Assembly (NCBI GenBank): GCA_020444245.1
Contig: JAHLLI010000014.1
Coordinates: 1-64,000, forward strand
Direction: 5' to 3'
Length of the DNA: 64,000 nt
From: Actinomycetales bacterium
GTDB lineage: Bacteria; Actinomycetota; Actinomycetes; Actinomycetales; Cellulomonadaceae
Below, piece after piece: positions 8,440 through 14,558 of this stretch. The translations under genes were made by a program, and so were the position numbers. Position 1 is the first letter of the stretch; every line of letters starts with the position of its first letter. Below the pieces are notes generated by a model. That model was not told where the DNA came from. It saw only the letters and a program-made list of their open reading frames with translations, and did no database searches.

Positions 8440-9051
8440 GTGCTTCACGCCCGCCCATGGGCGCGCGCTCGTCGGTCGGTACGCGCCGTCCCCGCCGCCG
8501 CGCTCGCGCTCGCGCTGCTCACCGTGGTGGCTCCGGCCGCCCAGGCGCACGACCAGCTGATCAGCACGGACCCACCGGACGGAGCGGTGCTGGACACCGC
8601 CCCTGCCTCGGTCGGCCTGACGTTCAGCGAGGACGTGCTGGACATCTCGACGACGGTCGTCGTCGCCGGACCGGACGGCTCGGTGCCCACCACGGCATCC
8701 GTCGACGGCACCACGGTCACCGCACCGCTACCGGCCGACCTGCCGGACGGTGCGTACACGGTCACGTGGCGTGTGGTCTCGAGCGACGGCCACCCGGTCC
8801 AGGGCAGCTTCGGCTTCACGGTCCAGGCAGCGGGCCCCGGCACGAGCAGCACCGGCGGCTCCGGCACGACGGGCACCGCCTCCGCGGCTCCCCCGACGTC
8901 CGGGGCGGCCTCACCGAGCACCTCGGCCTCGGCCACGCCCCAGGGCACCGCCGGCACCGGGCCGCTCGGCCTGGTCGCCGGGATCGCCGGCGCCGGGCTG
9001 GTCGCAGCGCTCCTCGTGCTGCTGCTCCGCAGGCGTCGCACCCGCGGCTAG
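8440..9051 (+). CDS. copC: CopC-domain copper-binding envelope protein
   Basis: A 203-aa exported protein. It has a signal peptide ending APAAQA, then the mature N-terminus HDQLISTDPPDGAVL, where the first His is the classic CopC Cu(II) ligand. DIS..., the SSDGHPVQGSFGFTV motif follows near residue 110. A Ser/Thr/Gly/Pro-rich linker and one C-terminal membrane helix with an RRRR stop-transfer anchor it to the membrane. GTG 8440 has AAGGAGAG 6 nt upstream. It should bind copper outside the cell and hand it to an importer or enzyme; no CopD domain is fused. Confidence 0.9.
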   Translation: MLHARPWARARRSVRAVPAAALALALLTVVAPAAQAHDQLISTDPPDGAVLDTAPASVGLTFSEDVLDISTTVVVAGPDGSVPTTASVDGTTVTAPLPADLPDGAYTVTWRVVSSDGHPVQGSFGFTVQAAGPGTSSTGGSGTTGTASAAPPTSGAASPSTSASATPQGTAGTGPLGLVAGIAGAGLVAALLVLLLRRRRTRG

Positions 9052-9146
9052 ACGACACCGTCCAGCCGCACCACCCGTCCGTCCACGACTCACCCCGACC
9101 TTCGCGCGCCGGCTCCCGTCGGCGTGCCCCACGACAGGAGAACCCC

Positions 9147-9725
9147 ATGACCCGGTGGCGTCGCGCCGCCCTGGCGGCACCCGCCCTCGTCCTCGCCCTG
9201 ACCGTCGCGGCCTGCGGCTCGTCGACCGACCCCACCGTCGACGCCGCGGCGGAGACCGGTGCCGGCGGGCTCACCGTGACCGACCCGTGGGCCAAGGCAG
9301 CCGACTCCGGCATGACCGCGGCCTTCGGCACCCTCGCCAACGACACCGACGCCGACATCACCATCACGTCCGCCTCCAGCGACGTCTCCCGCATGGAGCT
9401 GCACGAGATGGCGATGGGCGACGACGGCCAGATGGTGATGCGCCCCAAGGAGGGCGGCTTCGTCGTGCCCGCGCACGGCAGCCTCGAGCTCGCGCCCGGA
9501 GGTCAGCACGTGATGTTCATGGACCTGACCGAGCCGCTCCAGCCCGGGGCCGACGTCGACGTCACCCTGACCGCGGCCGACGGCTCCAGCTGGACCTTCA
9601 CGTTCCCGATCCGCACCTTCACCGGCGCCGCGGAGAACTACCAGGGCAGCGACGGCACGACGACCATGAGCCCGACGGATGGCTCGATGACCATGAGCCC
9701 GACCGACGGCTCCGGCGACTCGTGA
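9147..9725 (+). CDS. PCuAC-type copper chaperone lipoprotein
   Basis: A 192-aa lipoprotein (lipobox AAC, Cys 23). The PCuAC domain carries H86, M88, M98, H121 and M123, close to the family HxM-x9/10-M-x21/22-HxM copper(I) site. The C-terminal 25 residues contain a short repeat (TMSPTDGS twice) with extra Met. ACAGGAG precedes ATG 9147. It likely delivers Cu(I) to cytochrome oxidase or to other envelope copper proteins. Its stop overlaps the next start by 4 nt (GTGA), linking it tightly to the peroxidase. Confidence 0.9.
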   Translation: MTRWRRAALAAPALVLALTVAACGSSTDPTVDAAAETGAGGLTVTDPWAKAADSGMTAAFGTLANDTDADITITSASSDVSRMELHEMAMGDDGQMVMRPKEGGFVVPAHGSLELAPGGQHVMFMDLTEPLQPGADVDVTLTAADGSSWTFTFPIRTFTGAAENYQGSDGTTTMSPTDGSMTMSPTDGSGDS

Positions 9726-10918
9726 GCGGTCTGGACCGTCGGGCCTTCCTCCAGGGCGGGGCCGCTGCCGTCGGCGGCGCGGCCCTCGCCCTGGGCGGGG
9801 TCACCGCGTGGGACCACGCGGTCAGCCCGCCCCCGCCCGACGACGCCGTCGGCTCGGCCACCGTGCCGTTCCGTGGGGCGCGCCAGGCCGGTGTCGGCAC
9901 GCCGCCCCAGGCCTTCGCCTCGTTGCTGGCGTTCGACCTGCGGCCGGGGGTCGACCGCGGCGCGCTGATCCGCCTGATGCGCATCTGGACCGACGACATC
10001 GAGCGCCTCACGCAGGGCCACCCCGCGCTGACCGACACCGAGCCGGAGCTGGCCACCGCACCGGCCCGGCTGACGGTGACGCTGGGCTTCGGTCCCGGCG
10101 CGTTCGCCGCGGCAGGCCTCGAGCGCCGTCGCCCGTCGTGGCTGGCCCCGCTGCCCACGTTCCCGGTCGACCGGCTGCAGACCGCGTGGTCCGGCGGCGA
10201 CCTGGTGCTCCAGGTCGCCGCCGACGACCCGATGGCCGTGGCCCACGCGGCGCGCCTGCTCACCAAGGAGGCAGCGACCTTCGTCACCGCGCGGTGGACC
10301 CAGCAGGGCTTCCGTCAGGCGGTCGGTGCGCGACCCGCAGGGACCACGGCACGCAACCTCATGGGACAGGTCGACGGCACCGTCAACCCCGACCCCTCCG
10401 TGGACGCGGACGTGATCTGGCACGGCTCCGACGCCGAGCCGTGGCTGGCCGGATCGACGTCGATGGTGGTCCGGCGCATCGCGATGGCGCTGGACACCTG
10501 GGACAAGGTGGACCGGACCGGGCGCGAGTTCACCATCGGCCGGCGGCTGTCCGACGGTGCGCCGCTGACCGGGAACGCCGAGCACGACCCGCCGGACTTC
10601 GGTGCCGTCGACTCGCTGGGACTCCCGGTGATCGACACTGCGGCGCACATCCGTCGTGCGCACGCCACGAACGCCGGCGAGCGGTTCCTGCGGCGCCCGT
10701 ACAACTACCACGACCCGGCCCAGCCGGCCGGCGAGCAGACCGGGCTGATGTTCATCACCTTCCAGCGCGACGTCGCCACGCAGTTCCTGCCCGTGCAGCG
10801 CAGGGTCGCCGAGCTGGACCTCCTGAACCAGTGGACGACCCCCATCGGGTCGGCCGTGTTCTGGGTGCCGCCCGGCTCCCGGGCAGGCACCTACCTCGCC
10901 CAGGACCTGCTCGCCTGA
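9722..10918 (+). CDS. Tat-exported DyP-type haem peroxidase
   Basis: A 398-aa protein starting GTG 9722 in the PCuAC stop. The N-terminus has a twin-arginine signal (DRRAFLQGG) and a hydrophobic run. The DyP signature GXXDG appears as GQVDGT (about residue 218), with the haem-ligand His in DTAAHIRRAH and the distal Arg in RFLRRPYNY near the C-terminus. The family oxidises dyes, phenols or haem with H2O2; EfeB relatives strip iron from haem. Co-expression with CopC and PCuAC suggests action in the cell envelope on copper or oxidase maturation, but the substrate is unknown. Confidence 0.9.
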   Translation: MSGLDRRAFLQGGAAAVGGAALALGGVTAWDHAVSPPPPDDAVGSATVPFRGARQAGVGTPPQAFASLLAFDLRPGVDRGALIRLMRIWTDDIERLTQGHPALTDTEPELATAPARLTVTLGFGPGAFAAAGLERRRPSWLAPLPTFPVDRLQTAWSGGDLVLQVAADDPMAVAHAARLLTKEAATFVTARWTQQGFRQAVGARPAGTTARNLMGQVDGTVNPDPSVDADVIWHGSDAEPWLAGSTSMVVRRIAMALDTWDKVDRTGREFTIGRRLSDGAPLTGNAEHDPPDFGAVDSLGLPVIDTAAHIRRAHATNAGERFLRRPYNYHDPAQPAGEQTGLMFITFQRDVATQFLPVQRRVAELDLLNQWTTPIGSAVFWVPPGSRAGTYLAQDLLA

Positions 10919-11003: not shown

Positions 11004-11074
11004 TGCATACTGTGGCCGATCGGTCCTCTCCGGGGCCGATCTGTCACGTTGAAGAGTCATGATTGGGGGCGACG

Positions 11075-11416
11075 GTGCAGGACCTGGCTCCGGAGATCTA
11101 TCGGCAGCGCATGGTGGTCGAGGGGCTCGTGACGGAGCCCATCGATGCGGAGTCGATCAAGGGATACCTCTCCCAGCTGTCCAAGGCGATCGACATGGTC
11201 GAGCTGATCGAGCCGGTGACCCACCAGTCGCCGCTCTACGGCTGGGCCGGCTGGATCCACTGGGAGACCTCCGGCGCCCACTTCTACGCATGGGACGAGC
11301 CTCGACTCTTCTTCAGCGTGGACGTGTACGCGTGCAAGCCGTTCTCCGCCTCGACCGTGGTGGACCTGACGACCGAGTGGTTCGGCGCCACGCGGGTCGT
11401 GCACAAGGAGTTCTGA
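11075..11416 (+). CDS. SpeD-like (S-adenosylmethionine decarboxylase family) small protein
   Basis: A 113-aa protein resembling prokaryotic SpeD in length and in the central block HWETSGAHFYAWDE followed by LFFSVDVYACKPF. Aligned by eye to classical SpeD (ESHLTIHTWPE...VDVFTC), S66 matches the serine that becomes the pyruvoyl group and C87 matches the catalytic Cys, but the processing His is shifted or replaced (H69/Y71). It may decarboxylate SAM or another amino acid, or bind SAM without catalysis. GTG 11075 follows GGGGG at 11065-11069; TTG 11063 is an alternative. The next gene starts in its stop codon (TGATG). Confidence 0.65.
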   Translation: MQDLAPEIYRQRMVVEGLVTEPIDAESIKGYLSQLSKAIDMVELIEPVTHQSPLYGWAGWIHWETSGAHFYAWDEPRLFFSVDVYACKPFSASTVVDLTTEWFGATRVVHKEF

Positions 11417-12144
11417 TGTCGGCCCAGGCGCGGCTGCACGTCAGCCCGACCGGCTCGCTGCTCGAGGCCGCGCGCGAATGCGAGGCGGACGTCTTCTGGC
11501 GGTGGTACGGGAACACCCGCGAGGAGATCGACCTCGAGTACGGGCCCTACGAGGACGCGTCCGTCTTCCTCGCGGTCACGGACTCCGACGGGGACGTCGT
11601 CGCAGCGATGCGCCTGCTCCGCCCCGGCGGCTCCGCCGGCCTCAAGACCCTCCACGACATCGGCGGAGCGCCCTGGTACGCGGACGGCACTCGCGCCGCC
11701 GCCGCCGCCGGGCTCACGCTGACGAGCACGTGGGAGGTCGCCACCGTCAGCAGCCGACGCCGGCTCGGCTCGCAGGGCCTGCGACACTCCTTCGCCCTGT
11801 ACCACGCACTGGGCGCGATCGCGCGGGTCAACGCGATGACGGACTTCGTCGCGGTGCTCGACGACCGGGTGCGCCGCCTTCTGGACTCCGTGGGCCTCGT
11901 GACCCGTCCGATCCCGGGCACGCGCCCTGGGCCGTACCTCGGCTCGCCGTCGTCCACACCGGTGTTCGCCAACGTCAACACGATGCTGCGGGCCCAGCGG
12001 CGCGACCACCCCGAGTCGTTCGCGCTGGTGACGGTCGGCACGGGCCTGGACGGCGTCGCCGTCCCGCCCGACAGCGAGTTCCGGATCGCTCCTGCCGCGG
12101 ACTCGATCCCCTACTCGTGGACGGCGCCCGGCGCGCTCGTCTGA
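11416..12144 (+). CDS. GNAT-fold acyltransferase resembling LuxI-superfamily autoinducer synthases
   Basis: A 242-aa protein. The pattern EYGPYEDASVFLAVTDSDG, VVAAMRLLRP (R66) and later STWEVATVSS (E107) mirrors the LuxI order of an acidic ED motif, a β-strand with RLL(P), and a WE-S/T-R-like strand. FeeM-type N-acyl amino acid synthases share this fold. It then has an ALYHALGAIARVNAMTDFVAVLDDRVRRLLDSVG helical part common to these acyltransferases. It is coupled by a 1-nt overlap to the SpeD-like gene. LuxI enzymes use SAM plus an acyl donor, so a SAM-family partner is suggestive. No LuxR receptor is adjacent. Family call is tentative; product unknown. Confidence 0.6.
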   Translation: MSAQARLHVSPTGSLLEAARECEADVFWRWYGNTREEIDLEYGPYEDASVFLAVTDSDGDVVAAMRLLRPGGSAGLKTLHDIGGAPWYADGTRAAAAAGLTLTSTWEVATVSSRRRLGSQGLRHSFALYHALGAIARVNAMTDFVAVLDDRVRRLLDSVGLVTRPIPGTRPGPYLGSPSSTPVFANVNTMLRAQRRDHPESFALVTVGTGLDGVAVPPDSEFRIAPAADSIPYSWTAPGALV

Positions 12145-12193: not shown

Positions 12194-14449
12194 TCAGGCG
12201 AGCCGACTGGTGATCTGGCTCTCCTCCCAGTGACGAACCCACGGGCCCACCGCGTCCGGCGGCATCGGCCGCGCGATGTGGTAGCCCTGCACCACGTCGA
12301 CTCCCAACGGGACCAGCTCACCCATCGCGACCGCGTCCTCGACCCCCTCGGCCACGAACCTCAGCCCGAGCGCCCTGGCCATCTGCGTCGTCGTCTGCAC
12401 GATCATCCGGCTGCGCTCGTCGCTCGCCACCGGCGCGACGAAGGACCGGTCCATCTTCAGTTCCTGGACCGGCAGGTCGCGCAGGTACGCCAGCGACGAG
12501 AAGCCGGTGCCGTAGTCGTCGATGGCCACCTGCACGCCGTGCGCCCGCAGGTCGTGCAGGACCATGCGAGCACGCTCCGGATCGGTGAGGAACGAGTCCT
12601 CGGTGACCTCCACGAGGATGCTCTCGGGCGGCAGCTGGGCCTCCTCGATCGCGCTGAACAGGCGCGGCAGCAGCTGCCCGCCCACCAGCTCGGGCGGTGC
12701 CCAGTTCATCGCCACCCGGAAGGTGAAGCCCGCGTCGCGCCACCGTCGCGCGTCCGCGACGACCTGGAGCATCAGCGCCTCGGTCAGGGCGGGCATGAGA
12801 CCGGCACGGCGCGCGTCGGGCAGGAAGGCGATCGGCGGCAGCAACCCTTCGGTCGGGTGCCACCAGCGCATCAGCGCCTCCATCGCCACGACCTGGCGGG
12901 TCCGGGCGTCGATCTGCGGCTGGTACCACGCGATGAGCTGTCCGCGGGTGAGCGCGGTGCGCAGCGCCTCGCCACGGAGCAGGCGCAGGTGCGACATGCC
13001 GTCCTGCGCGCGGTCGAAGAGCAGGACGCCGGCCTTGGCCTGCTTGGCCTCGTACATCGCGACGTCGGCCCGGCGCAGCATCTCGATCGCGGAGGTGTCG
13101 GTCTCCTCGCGCACCGCGATGCCCACCGACGCGTCGATCGCCAGGTCGATGCCCTCGACACGCAGCGGCTGGCGCAGCGTCGAGCGGATCTCCTGCGCGA
13201 TCTCGAAGAGGGTCAGCTCGTCCTCGCTCGGGACGGACAGCGCGAACTCGTCGCCGCCGAGCCGGGCGACCGACATCCCGGGCCCGGCGAGCTCCCGCAG
13301 TCGCTCGGCCAGGCTGACCAGCACCTCGTCGCCGACGCCATGGCCGAGCGAGTCGTTGATGTCCTTGAACGAGTCCAGGTCGAGCAGCAGGACCGAGACC
13401 GGGCCGCGGTGCTGGATCGCGTGGTCGGTCGCCTCGAGGACCGAGCGACGGTTGGGCAGGGCCGTGAGCTCGTCGGTGAGGGACAGGCGCATCGCCTCTG
13501 TGGCTCCCCGAGCCTCGCGCAGCGCGAGGAGCAGTCGCCAACCGGTCGCGACGAGCACGATCACGGCAGGCGCGCGGACGATCCATCCCGTCACGCCGCC
13601 CGGCGTCACGGCGACCGCCCCGACCGCCACGGTCGCGGCGCCGAGCAGCACCGCCGACGGGATGTCGCGGCGCGGGCCCGCGACATCGACCGGCGACCGC
13701 ACTGCGCCCTCGACGATCAGGGCGAAGCCGCTGCCCCACACCGCGGCCAGCAGCAGGCTGGTCGTGTAGTAGTCCTGGGTGCCGAGCCCGGCAAGGAAGC
13801 TCGAGTCGGCGACGGCGAGCAGGACGAAGCCCGAGGCCAGGAGCGCTGTGCGCAGCTCCTTGTGGCGCACGCGCAGCACCATCTGCCCGAGCACCAGGCC
13901 CGCGAGCACGACGTTGATGAGCGGGAAGAGCACCGCCACGATCAGCTGCGTCGTCTCGCCGGCGAACTGGTCGGCCACCGGCGTGACGAGGACGAAGGCG
14001 GACAGGCACACCGTGGCGCCCCAGATCACGATCGCCTCGAGCGCCACCGACAGCGACACCCGCCGCCGCCTGGTGTCCATGATGATGAAGACCGCCAGGC
14101 CGATGTAGGCAGCGATGCAGGCCCACTCGCCCGTCGCCGGGAAGGTCACGTCGTCCACGGTCTGGCCGGCGTTCACCGTCGCCGAGCCCGCAGCCCACAG
14201 CGCGATCGAGCCGCCGAGCACGAGCATCGCGAGCCGGCGGGGGCGGTCGACGACGCTCACCAGCGCCACCCGTGCGATGAGGACGGCGAAGAACAGCCCG
14301 AGTGTGACGACCAGCGTGATCCTCGCGGGCGGGTCGTCAGGACCGCCGGGGAGCAGGCCGGCGACCACCCATCCCACGAGCATCAGCGCCCAGGGCACCG
14401 GCGCGAGGATGCGGACGAGCCGCATCGCACCGTCCCGGCGTCCCACCAC
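12194..14449 (-). CDS. Membrane GGDEF-EAL protein (c-di-GMP turnover)
   Basis: A 751-aa protein: about nine membrane helices (residues 5-290), a GGDEF domain with intact RLGGDEF, and an EAL domain. Catalytic EAL residues are all visible: MEALMRW, the Asn of AMNWAPPEL, VEVTED, AIDDYGTGFSS, ELKMDRSF, VAEGVED and VQGYHIARPM. The inhibitory RxxD before GGDEF is replaced by GPGM. Both activities may exist, with phosphodiesterase the safer guess. GTG 14449 is chosen because GGGAGGA lies 6 nt upstream (complement of 14456-14462); an in-frame ATG at 14530 would add 27 residues. GAATCC-GGGA-GGATTC (14532-14547) lies just upstream and may be an operator. Confidence 0.9.
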   Translation of the reverse strand: MVGRRDGAMRLVRILAPVPWALMLVGWVVAGLLPGGPDDPPARITLVVTLGLFFAVLIARVALVSVVDRPRRLAMLVLGGSIALWAAGSATVNAGQTVDDVTFPATGEWACIAAYIGLAVFIIMDTRRRRVSLSVALEAIVIWGATVCLSAFVLVTPVADQFAGETTQLIVAVLFPLINVVLAGLVLGQMVLRVRHKELRTALLASGFVLLAVADSSFLAGLGTQDYYTTSLLLAAVWGSGFALIVEGAVRSPVDVAGPRRDIPSAVLLGAATVAVGAVAVTPGGVTGWIVRAPAVIVLVATGWRLLLALREARGATEAMRLSLTDELTALPNRRSVLEATDHAIQHRGPVSVLLLDLDSFKDINDSLGHGVGDEVLVSLAERLRELAGPGMSVARLGGDEFALSVPSEDELTLFEIAQEIRSTLRQPLRVEGIDLAIDASVGIAVREETDTSAIEMLRRADVAMYEAKQAKAGVLLFDRAQDGMSHLRLLRGEALRTALTRGQLIAWYQPQIDARTRQVVAMEALMRWWHPTEGLLPPIAFLPDARRAGLMPALTEALMLQVVADARRWRDAGFTFRVAMNWAPPELVGGQLLPRLFSAIEEAQLPPESILVEVTEDSFLTDPERARMVLHDLRAHGVQVAIDDYGTGFSSLAYLRDLPVQELKMDRSFVAPVASDERSRMIVQTTTQMARALGLRFVAEGVEDAVAMGELVPLGVDVVQGYHIARPMPPDAVGPWVRHWEESQITSRLA

Positions 14450-14558
14450 GAGCGGTCCTCCCTCTTGCCACAGTCCCTGCGCTCGCTCCTCCATCGACCA
14501 ACCGGCACGACGCCTTGAGACAAACCGCACCGAATCCGGGAGGATTCACCCTGACAGC

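Follow-up and report, generated by a model that had tools for sequence, protein, structure and literature searches.

An overlapping pair of SpeD-like and LuxI-like genes beside a membrane GGDEF-EAL protein gene may make and detect an undescribed chemical signal

The window analysed here is a stretch of 64,000 nucleotides from an actinobacterium of the family Cellulomonadaceae. It carries two short genes that overlap on the forward strand and, convergent with them, a gene for a membrane protein; the features of this locus are listed below, with positions given in the window.

11075..11416, + strand: speD-like gene; 113 aa, GTG start, TGA stop at 11416
11405..11410, + strand: Shine-Dalgarno-like AAGGAG for the luxI-like gene, within the last speD-like codons
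11416..12144, + strand: gene for a LuxI/FeeM-like GNAT-fold acyltransferase (the luxI-like gene); 242 aa, ATG start, TGA stop
12194..14530, − strand: gene for a membrane GGDEF-EAL protein of 778 aa, convergent with the pair and 49 bp away; proposed receptor/output
13496..14530, − strand: N-terminal multi-TM region (aa 1–345) of the GGDEF-EAL protein, used for alignment A3; proposed sensor

Both of the open reading frames reported in a first-pass annotation of this DNA are real and lie where it placed them. The one-base overlap that it described is the sequence TGATG, in which the speD-like stop and the luxI-like start share the base at 11416. This overlap is kept in all 11 genomes of the window's family that carry the pair, and the AAGGAG in 10 of the 11, with AAAGAG taking its place in L004. 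The AAGGAG is suitably spaced for starting translation of the luxI-like gene, and, to judge from this arrangement, the two genes are probably translationally coupled. A longer start for the speD-like gene, TTG at 11063, is possible; the GTG start is backed by the alignment of the 11 genomes. The upstream neighbour of the pair, in the latter part of window positions 8750–10918 (+), looks by eye like a Dyp-type peroxidase with a Tat-like start.

The likeness of the first protein to SAM decarboxylase, proposed in the first-pass annotation, is borne out by profile and by fold. Pfam AdoMet_dc (PF02675) matches it with an E-value of 6.2e-9, scoring 36.6 bits where the cut-off is 25, while the stricter SpeD model, the NCBIfam equivalog TIGR03330, is not reached (12.8 versus 75.65 bits). 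The AF2 model of the protein (pLDDT 97.2) has the class-1b AdoMetDC fold, and its best Foldseek matches are the Thermotoga maritima AdoMetDC structures 1tmi, 1tlu and 1vr7, at TM 0.79–0.80 and 14–15% identity. A sequence search of the PDB with the SpeD profile returned chance matches to RNA-binding proteins and nothing else, and no viral or phage relatives of the protein were found. A search of plasmids gave three distant SpeD relatives (Acaryochloris, Nostoc and Halioglobus), with no LuxI-like gene within their flanks. The relative on Acaryochloris marina plasmid pREC2 (L132:5908-7357), which carries DSGISLYVW, lies just 3' of a two-domain GNAT acetyltransferase that did not match the LuxI-like profile.

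According to PMC10407285, T. maritima AdoMetDC uses S63 as the pyruvoyl serine, H68 as the processing and catalytic histidine, and C83. The window's Ser66, at the pyruvoyl serine position, and Cys87 had been described as retained, and they are kept in 80 of 80 SpeD-clade loci, where the search patterns WAGWIHW and AHFYAWD account for part of the invariance from Ser66 to Tyr71; both residues are also kept in five relatives found without motif patterns. The accompanying claim that the processing histidine is displaced is right in that the canonical position most likely holds no histidine, and can now be refined. In an ungapped alignment the His68 column of T. maritima is filled by Tyr71 (Ser+5), which is Tyr throughout the same 80 pattern-selected loci (80/80), and an invariant His69 lies at Ser+3; one profile alignment alternatively puts His69 on the canonical histidine, at the cost of two gaps. 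In outer relatives whose detection did not depend on the search motifs, this stretch is ESGAFVYTW, DSGISLYVW, DSGISAYVW or ESGIALYTW, and because the Ser-Tyr-Trp spacing is the same in these, the ungapped alignment is favoured. Thus, on the evidence of the alignments, Tyr71 most likely occupies the position of His68, and this replacement speaks against taking autoprocessing of the speD-like protein for granted. Most other actinomycetote AdoMet_dc proteins carry ESHxxxHT[WY]. Two AdoMet_dc proteins, at L106 (G284) and L108 (G172), have SHLSIHTWPE, with LSYG or LAYG replacing the Cys motif.

The SpeD clade stands apart in a phylogenetic tree, on a long branch with strong support (100/99), L116 having been left out of the AdoMet_dc set and L103 out of the tree. 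Kinship of the clade with a tandem SpeDC-like group was neither shown nor rejected (p-AU 0.43). Members of that kind, at L122 (202-1881) and L123–L125 (family f19), carry ETSSITGHF and resemble the SpeDC type described in PMC10407285; at L122 a canonical SpeD and an ORF that resembles spermidine synthase by eye stand in tandem with this SpeD. Spermidine synthase (PF01564) exceeds the cut-off in none of the 11 pair genomes, where three weak sub-threshold matches were seen, and the window protein therefore counts as an orphan SpeD as PMC10407285 uses the term. The orphan SpeDs assayed in that paper were ornithine or arginine decarboxylases.

The second protein had been assigned to the LuxI/FeeM superfamily, an assignment that its fold upholds and that its profile matches fall short of. 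Pfam Autoind_synth stays below threshold (E 0.0042, 17.1 bits versus a cut-off of 24), as does exosort_acyl (E 4.2e-4). Among 54 rows of the family, matches at E≤0.01 were obtained with exosort_acyl for 40, Autoind_synth for 9, Acetyltransf_5 for 7 and FeeM for 4, the best FeeM match being 1.3e-4. When the AF2 model (pLDDT 92.9) was searched with Foldseek, the AHL synthases BjaI and RpaI filled the top three places; FeeM (2g0b) came 8th, TofI 14th and LasI 22nd, amid other GNAT enzymes including SpeG. TM values for these matches, normalised by query length, are about 0.5–0.6.

Residue counts were made over the 70 rows of at least 200 aa, three truncated LuxI-like rows of less than 200 aa being set aside. 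Arg66 and an Asp or Glu at 107, which we take to be LasI R70 and E101, are kept in 70/70, F27 is likewise present in 70/70, and position 46 is Glu or Asp in 59/70. The conserved residues of LuxI are, we assume, R23, F27, W33, D44, D47, R70, E101 and R104 in LasI numbering. At the equivalents of R23, W33, D44 and R104 the family instead has Glu (70/70), Asn (69), Gly (58) and Thr or Ser (69). Since positions that we take to define LuxI are changed, AHL-type chemistry is disfavoured, and synthesis of AHLs by this protein seems unlikely. Going by its modelled fold, we regard the luxI-like protein as an acyltransferase-fold member of the LuxI/FeeM superfamily for which the name AHL synthase is unsuitable.

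To examine the pairing we used a scan with the SpeD alignment over one genome per species. This gave 120 relatives, the best 80 of which serve as our named loci, with gene calls and start codons from custom scripts. A LuxI-like gene lies directly downstream on the same strand in 73 of these best 80 of 120, its start at most 17 nt from the speD stop in 61 of the 73 (start choice being that of our own scripts). L082 has a divergent LuxI-like copy, beyond the 73, and in six of the 80 loci (L036, L050, L062, L080, L086 and L087) none was detected beside the SpeD gene; the genomes of L036 and L062 carry a LuxI-like gene elsewhere. As a control we took 22 other PF02675 places, from 21 of 149 actinomycetote genomes, and found no LuxI-like gene beside any of them in flanks of up to 1.5 kb (0/22; best chance match E 0.048). 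A six-frame PF02675 search missed even the window's own copy, so that blanks in that search mean little. Our conclusion from 73/80 SpeD-clade loci against 0/22 control places is that the SpeD-like and LuxI-like genes are paired beyond chance.

The first-pass annotation had held that a SAM-family partner beside a LuxI-like gene was hard to see as chance, and the pairing itself vindicates that view and supports a functional link between the two genes. The shared-SAM argument behind it is weak, since FeeM-type acyltransferases, to our knowledge, do not use SAM. It is weakened further by SpeDs without spermidine synthase, which can be ornithine or arginine decarboxylases (PMC10407285). Neither outcome that the annotation had named against its own proposal came about: the proteins do not fall into unrelated families, and their adjacency is conserved outside the window's genome.

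In a sample of 150 genomes of the family, the 11 genomes with the SpeD gene are also those with a LuxI-like gene; the search listed 12 of 150, and G073 and a second G130 place were dropped as spurious (partial, E about 1e-3). The reverse test found SpeD in 11/11 family genomes with a true luxI-like gene and in the one other such genome of the phylum sample (396 genomes). The pair is rare in the phylum, at 2/396 genomes by alignment A2. Alignment A5 found nine of 386. Three belong to the clade proper (the window's genome, G433 and G335), one (G424) has an outer relative, and five have other kinds of SpeD. A LuxI-like neighbour is present in two of the three clade-proper genomes (2/386), G335 being the one without. 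Hosts of the pair include Actinotalea, Geodermatophilaceae, Micromonosporaceae, Nocardioidaceae, Acidimicrobiia, Mycolicibacterium sphagni and Saccharibacteria, several of the non-actinobacterial loci being MAG contigs that are possibly misbinned. Over 70 pairs the mean distance is 0.65 for the luxI-like and 0.35 for the speD-like protein, the former thus evolving faster, and the mirror-tree correlation is 0.82, uncorrected for species kinship.

Two of the named loci have features of their own. At L086:7989-10614 (a Micavibrio MAG) the clade SpeD is overlapped by the gene for a 255-aa protein without a Pfam match, which is followed by a gene resembling a PLP aminotransferase by eye. At L060:8010-11425 (Mycolicibacterium sphagni) the SpeD groups among those of Saccharibacteria in the tree, the neighbour is a 7TM kinase as it is in Saccharibacteria, and a transfer between phyla is possible.

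The GGDEF-EAL neighbour of the pair went unmentioned in the first-pass annotation. Pfam identifies GGDEF (5.7e-37) and EAL (7.7e-66) domains, and a simple hydropathy scan shows ten hydrophobic segments at aa 38–339, with the GGDEF at 425 and EAL-domain motifs present. The N-terminal TM region is common to pair-linked GGDEF-EAL proteins of other families, and by a profile of this region 47 of the 73 pairs have a GGDEF-type sensor nearby; as the profile was built from 41 such neighbours and 40 of the 47 counted loci lie inside it, this figure shows mutual likeness and varied arrangement rather than independent discovery. The sensor gene is upstream on the same strand in 22 of the 47 loci (mostly Geodermatophilaceae), downstream and convergent in 21 (Actinotalea and some Acidimicrobiia among them), downstream on the same strand in two (L064, L068) and upstream and divergent in two (L061, L073).

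The survey of the family, from whose pair genomes three rows of profile A3 derive, is a fairer test than the locus count. Here a close sensor adjoins the pair in 11/11 pair genomes, against 2/139 of the others (Fisher p 5e-15, uncorrected for kinship). Strong matches (E≤3e-64) occur in 13/150 genomes, namely the 11 pair genomes, G013 and G135, and the next match is at 1.6e-39. No SpeD or LuxI-like gene was found near the G013 and G135 sensors in the stretch examined (12 kb; the whole 3.8-kb contig). Some match to the sensor domain is present in 61/150 family genomes, with three further weaker matches in the window's own genome; weaker matches being this widespread, the domain cannot be called pair-specific. 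At L119:1492-3330 (G335) the genes for a clade SpeD (ENSGAHFYAW) and for a GGDEF-type sensor, which the profile matches at E 6.6e-40, are divergent, and the 1.5 kb downstream of the SpeD gave no LuxI-like match.

In seven of the 73 pairs, six from Saccharibacteria and one from Mycolicibacterium, a 7TM histidine kinase lies directly downstream instead. Five such kinases, one of them from L082, outside the 73, were scanned in full or in part: HisKA was found in all, the 7TM model was reached in three, and GAF was at or below the cut-off in most. A single-domain response regulator gene lies upstream on the other strand in nine Saccharibacteria/Saccharimonadia loci and in L089 (one of them scanned with Pfam). 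Neither kind of sensor accompanies 19 of the 73 pairs. Ten of these are Micromonosporaceae pairs, for which 5–8 kb were searched on each side; for the remaining nine no more than 3 kb of contig follow downstream, and in four of them a fragment of an EAL or kinase protein is visible. We considered whether the GGDEF sensor region and the 7TM region of the kinases are homologous; no homology was detected by sequence (hhalign probability 0.9%), and the idea of the same ligand with a swapped output is thus not established. At L080 (Saccharibacteria) the GGDEF sensor profile gives a weak match, at E 8e-4 in a search of 991 genes, to a standalone membrane protein that has no Pfam match. Other neighbours scanned in distant lineages are unrelated or nameless: FolD in Saccharibacteria, three proteins without a match, and, in Micromonosporaceae, a protein kinase, an ABC transporter and an RNA methyltransferase.

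A role in signalling becomes plausible through the membrane GGDEF-EAL protein encoded beside the pair. The reading that we prefer, to which we give somewhat less than an even chance, is that the locus is a small module of decarboxylase, acyltransferase and membrane sensor for a signal or a signal-like metabolite. In such a module the speD-like protein would gain a pyruvoyl group through self-cleavage at Ser66 and would decarboxylate ornithine, arginine or another amino acid, these being likelier substrates than SAM, to give an amine. Its translationally coupled LuxI/FeeM-like partner would acylate the amine, with acyl-CoA or acyl-ACP as the donor, the acylated product would leave the cell, and the polytopic GGDEF-EAL neighbour would read it and change the level of c-di-GMP. 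In Saccharibacteria and Mycolicibacterium sphagni the 7TM-GAF histidine kinase would take the place of the GGDEF-EAL receptor. A broader reading, possible though doubtful in our view, is that this is a new class of cell–cell signalling, a two-enzyme synthase of acylated amines with interchangeable membrane receptors: GGDEF-EAL in actinobacteria, and a 7TM histidine kinase with a single-domain response regulator in Saccharibacteria.

Several other explanations must be weighed against the signalling module. The pair might serve the membrane or secondary metabolism by making an N-acyl amine or an aminolipid, comparable to the products of FeeM or to palmitoylputrescine, with the sensor merely regulating it or neighbouring it for other reasons. 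Such a role would fit the presence of FeeM among the fold matches, the ten Micromonosporaceae pairs without a nearby sensor, and the eDNA-derived long-chain N-acyl compounds and palmitoylputrescine that appear in the literature. However, the sensor adjoins the pair across lineages of differing gene order, close sensors go together with the pair within the family, and L119 has SpeD and sensor with no acyltransferase in the flank; we consider this explanation rather unlikely, if still a serious contender. It is also conceivable, with a lower probability again, that the LuxI-like protein is not a synthase, and is instead a maturation or control partner that binds CoA or acyl-CoA and drives or gates pyruvoyl formation in a SpeD without the processing histidine, in the manner of PanZ and PanD. 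PanZ has a GNAT fold. The tight one-to-one coupling of the genes and the Tyr found at the canonical His68 position in 80/80 loci (partly imposed by the search patterns) speak for such a partner, as does the CoA-dependent PanZ/PanD precedent (PMC3473359). Against it, the top fold matches are AHL synthases, the outer relatives that share the Tyr (G424 and the Acaryochloris, Nostoc and Halioglobus plasmids) have no LuxI-like gene in their flanks, and the LuxI-like partner is the faster evolving of the two (0.65 versus 0.35, 70 pairs).

Two further explanations dispense with one half of the pair. Loss of the canonical histidine could mean that the speD-like protein has no catalytic activity and serves as a subunit for regulation or ligand binding, leaving the LuxI-like enzyme to make the product alone, and dead AdoMetDC paralogues are indeed known, an example being the trypanosome prozyme (PMC5201418). 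Yet Ser66 and Cys87 are kept in 80/80 loci and in the five pattern-free relatives, and the speD-like protein is more conserved than its partner, so that we think a dead subunit quite improbable. Lastly, a divergent LuxI could carry out ordinary AHL synthesis beside an unrelated SpeD. AHL synthases do head the fold matches, and the AHLs of Rhodococcus kroppenstedtii depend on a luxI homologue, as reported in PMC13136126; the changed LuxI-defining positions, the near-obligate pairing with SpeD, and the lack of any LuxR-type gene among the few neighbour proteins scanned nevertheless make this very improbable indeed.

If the signalling module is the right reading, pair and sensor together may make and detect an undescribed chemical signal. 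The actinobacterial genomes treated in PMC13136126 carry LuxI homologues alone, without canonical LuxI/LuxR pairs, and the present locus is a concrete alternative to LuxI/LuxR: a conserved pair of enzymes that probably work with a membrane receptor and a c-di-GMP output. It also adds an orphan SpeD clade in which the catalytic histidine is replaced. That paper mentions no decarboxylase, SpeD or GGDEF, and PMC10407285 mentions no acyltransferase, LuxI or GGDEF. Among the matches listed in a full-text literature search, which covered titles and the starts of abstracts and left most subscription papers outside, no paper concerned a SpeD–LuxI pair. The pair occurs in genera with named, cultured strains, such as Actinotalea and Blastococcus, and the Saccharibacteria, with their reduced genomes, gain a candidate small-molecule pathway. 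Saccharibacteria with known hosts live on actinobacteria, and for this reason a system common to both could, if our reading is true, carry signals between epibiont and host.

Each part of the locus has a counterpart in a known system. The ornithine and arginine decarboxylases SpeDC and SpeDA (PMC10407285) share with the window protein the SpeD fold, the conserved Ser and Cys, and the lack of an above-cut-off spermidine synthase in the genomes tested. Of the Gln, Thr, Phe and Tyr diagnostic of SpeDC, only the Thr before the Ser, which the tandem SpeDs of L122–L125 (taken as SpeDC-like) also have within their ETS motif, is plainly common, in a comparison made without the exact columns of the published figure. 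In contrast to SpeDC and SpeDA, the window clade is separate, has Tyr at the His68 position, and sits beside an acyltransferase gene rather than polyamine genes. With LuxI enzymes (BjaI, RpaI, LasI) and the N-acyl amino acid synthase FeeM the luxI-like protein shares a GNAT-type fold, Arg66 and the acidic residue 107; it differs from them in the residues at the LuxI positions R23, W33, D44 and R104 (Glu, Asn, mostly Gly, and Thr or Ser), in falling below all family cut-offs, and in its coupling to a SpeD. PanZ–PanD, likened here by description, similarly joins a CoA-binding partner to a pyruvoyl decarboxylase, with the differences that PanZ is an activator and that the fold of PanD is not that of SpeD.

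On the receptor side, MbaA has GGDEF-EAL domains, and the NspS/MbaA system of Vibrio cholerae reportedly reads a polyamine signal through this membrane c-di-GMP protein, which sets a precedent for the sensing of amines. That system differs in using a periplasmic binding protein, and we know of no LuxI-like enzyme in it. RpfR, a GGDEF-EAL receptor whose gene is adjacent to rpfF, is soluble and contains PAS, and RpfF is a fatty-acid enzyme with the crotonase fold. RpfF/RpfR, the BDSF system described in PMC4698668, is likewise a conserved gene pair of signal synthase and sensor, whereas the window locus has two enzymes and a membrane sensor.
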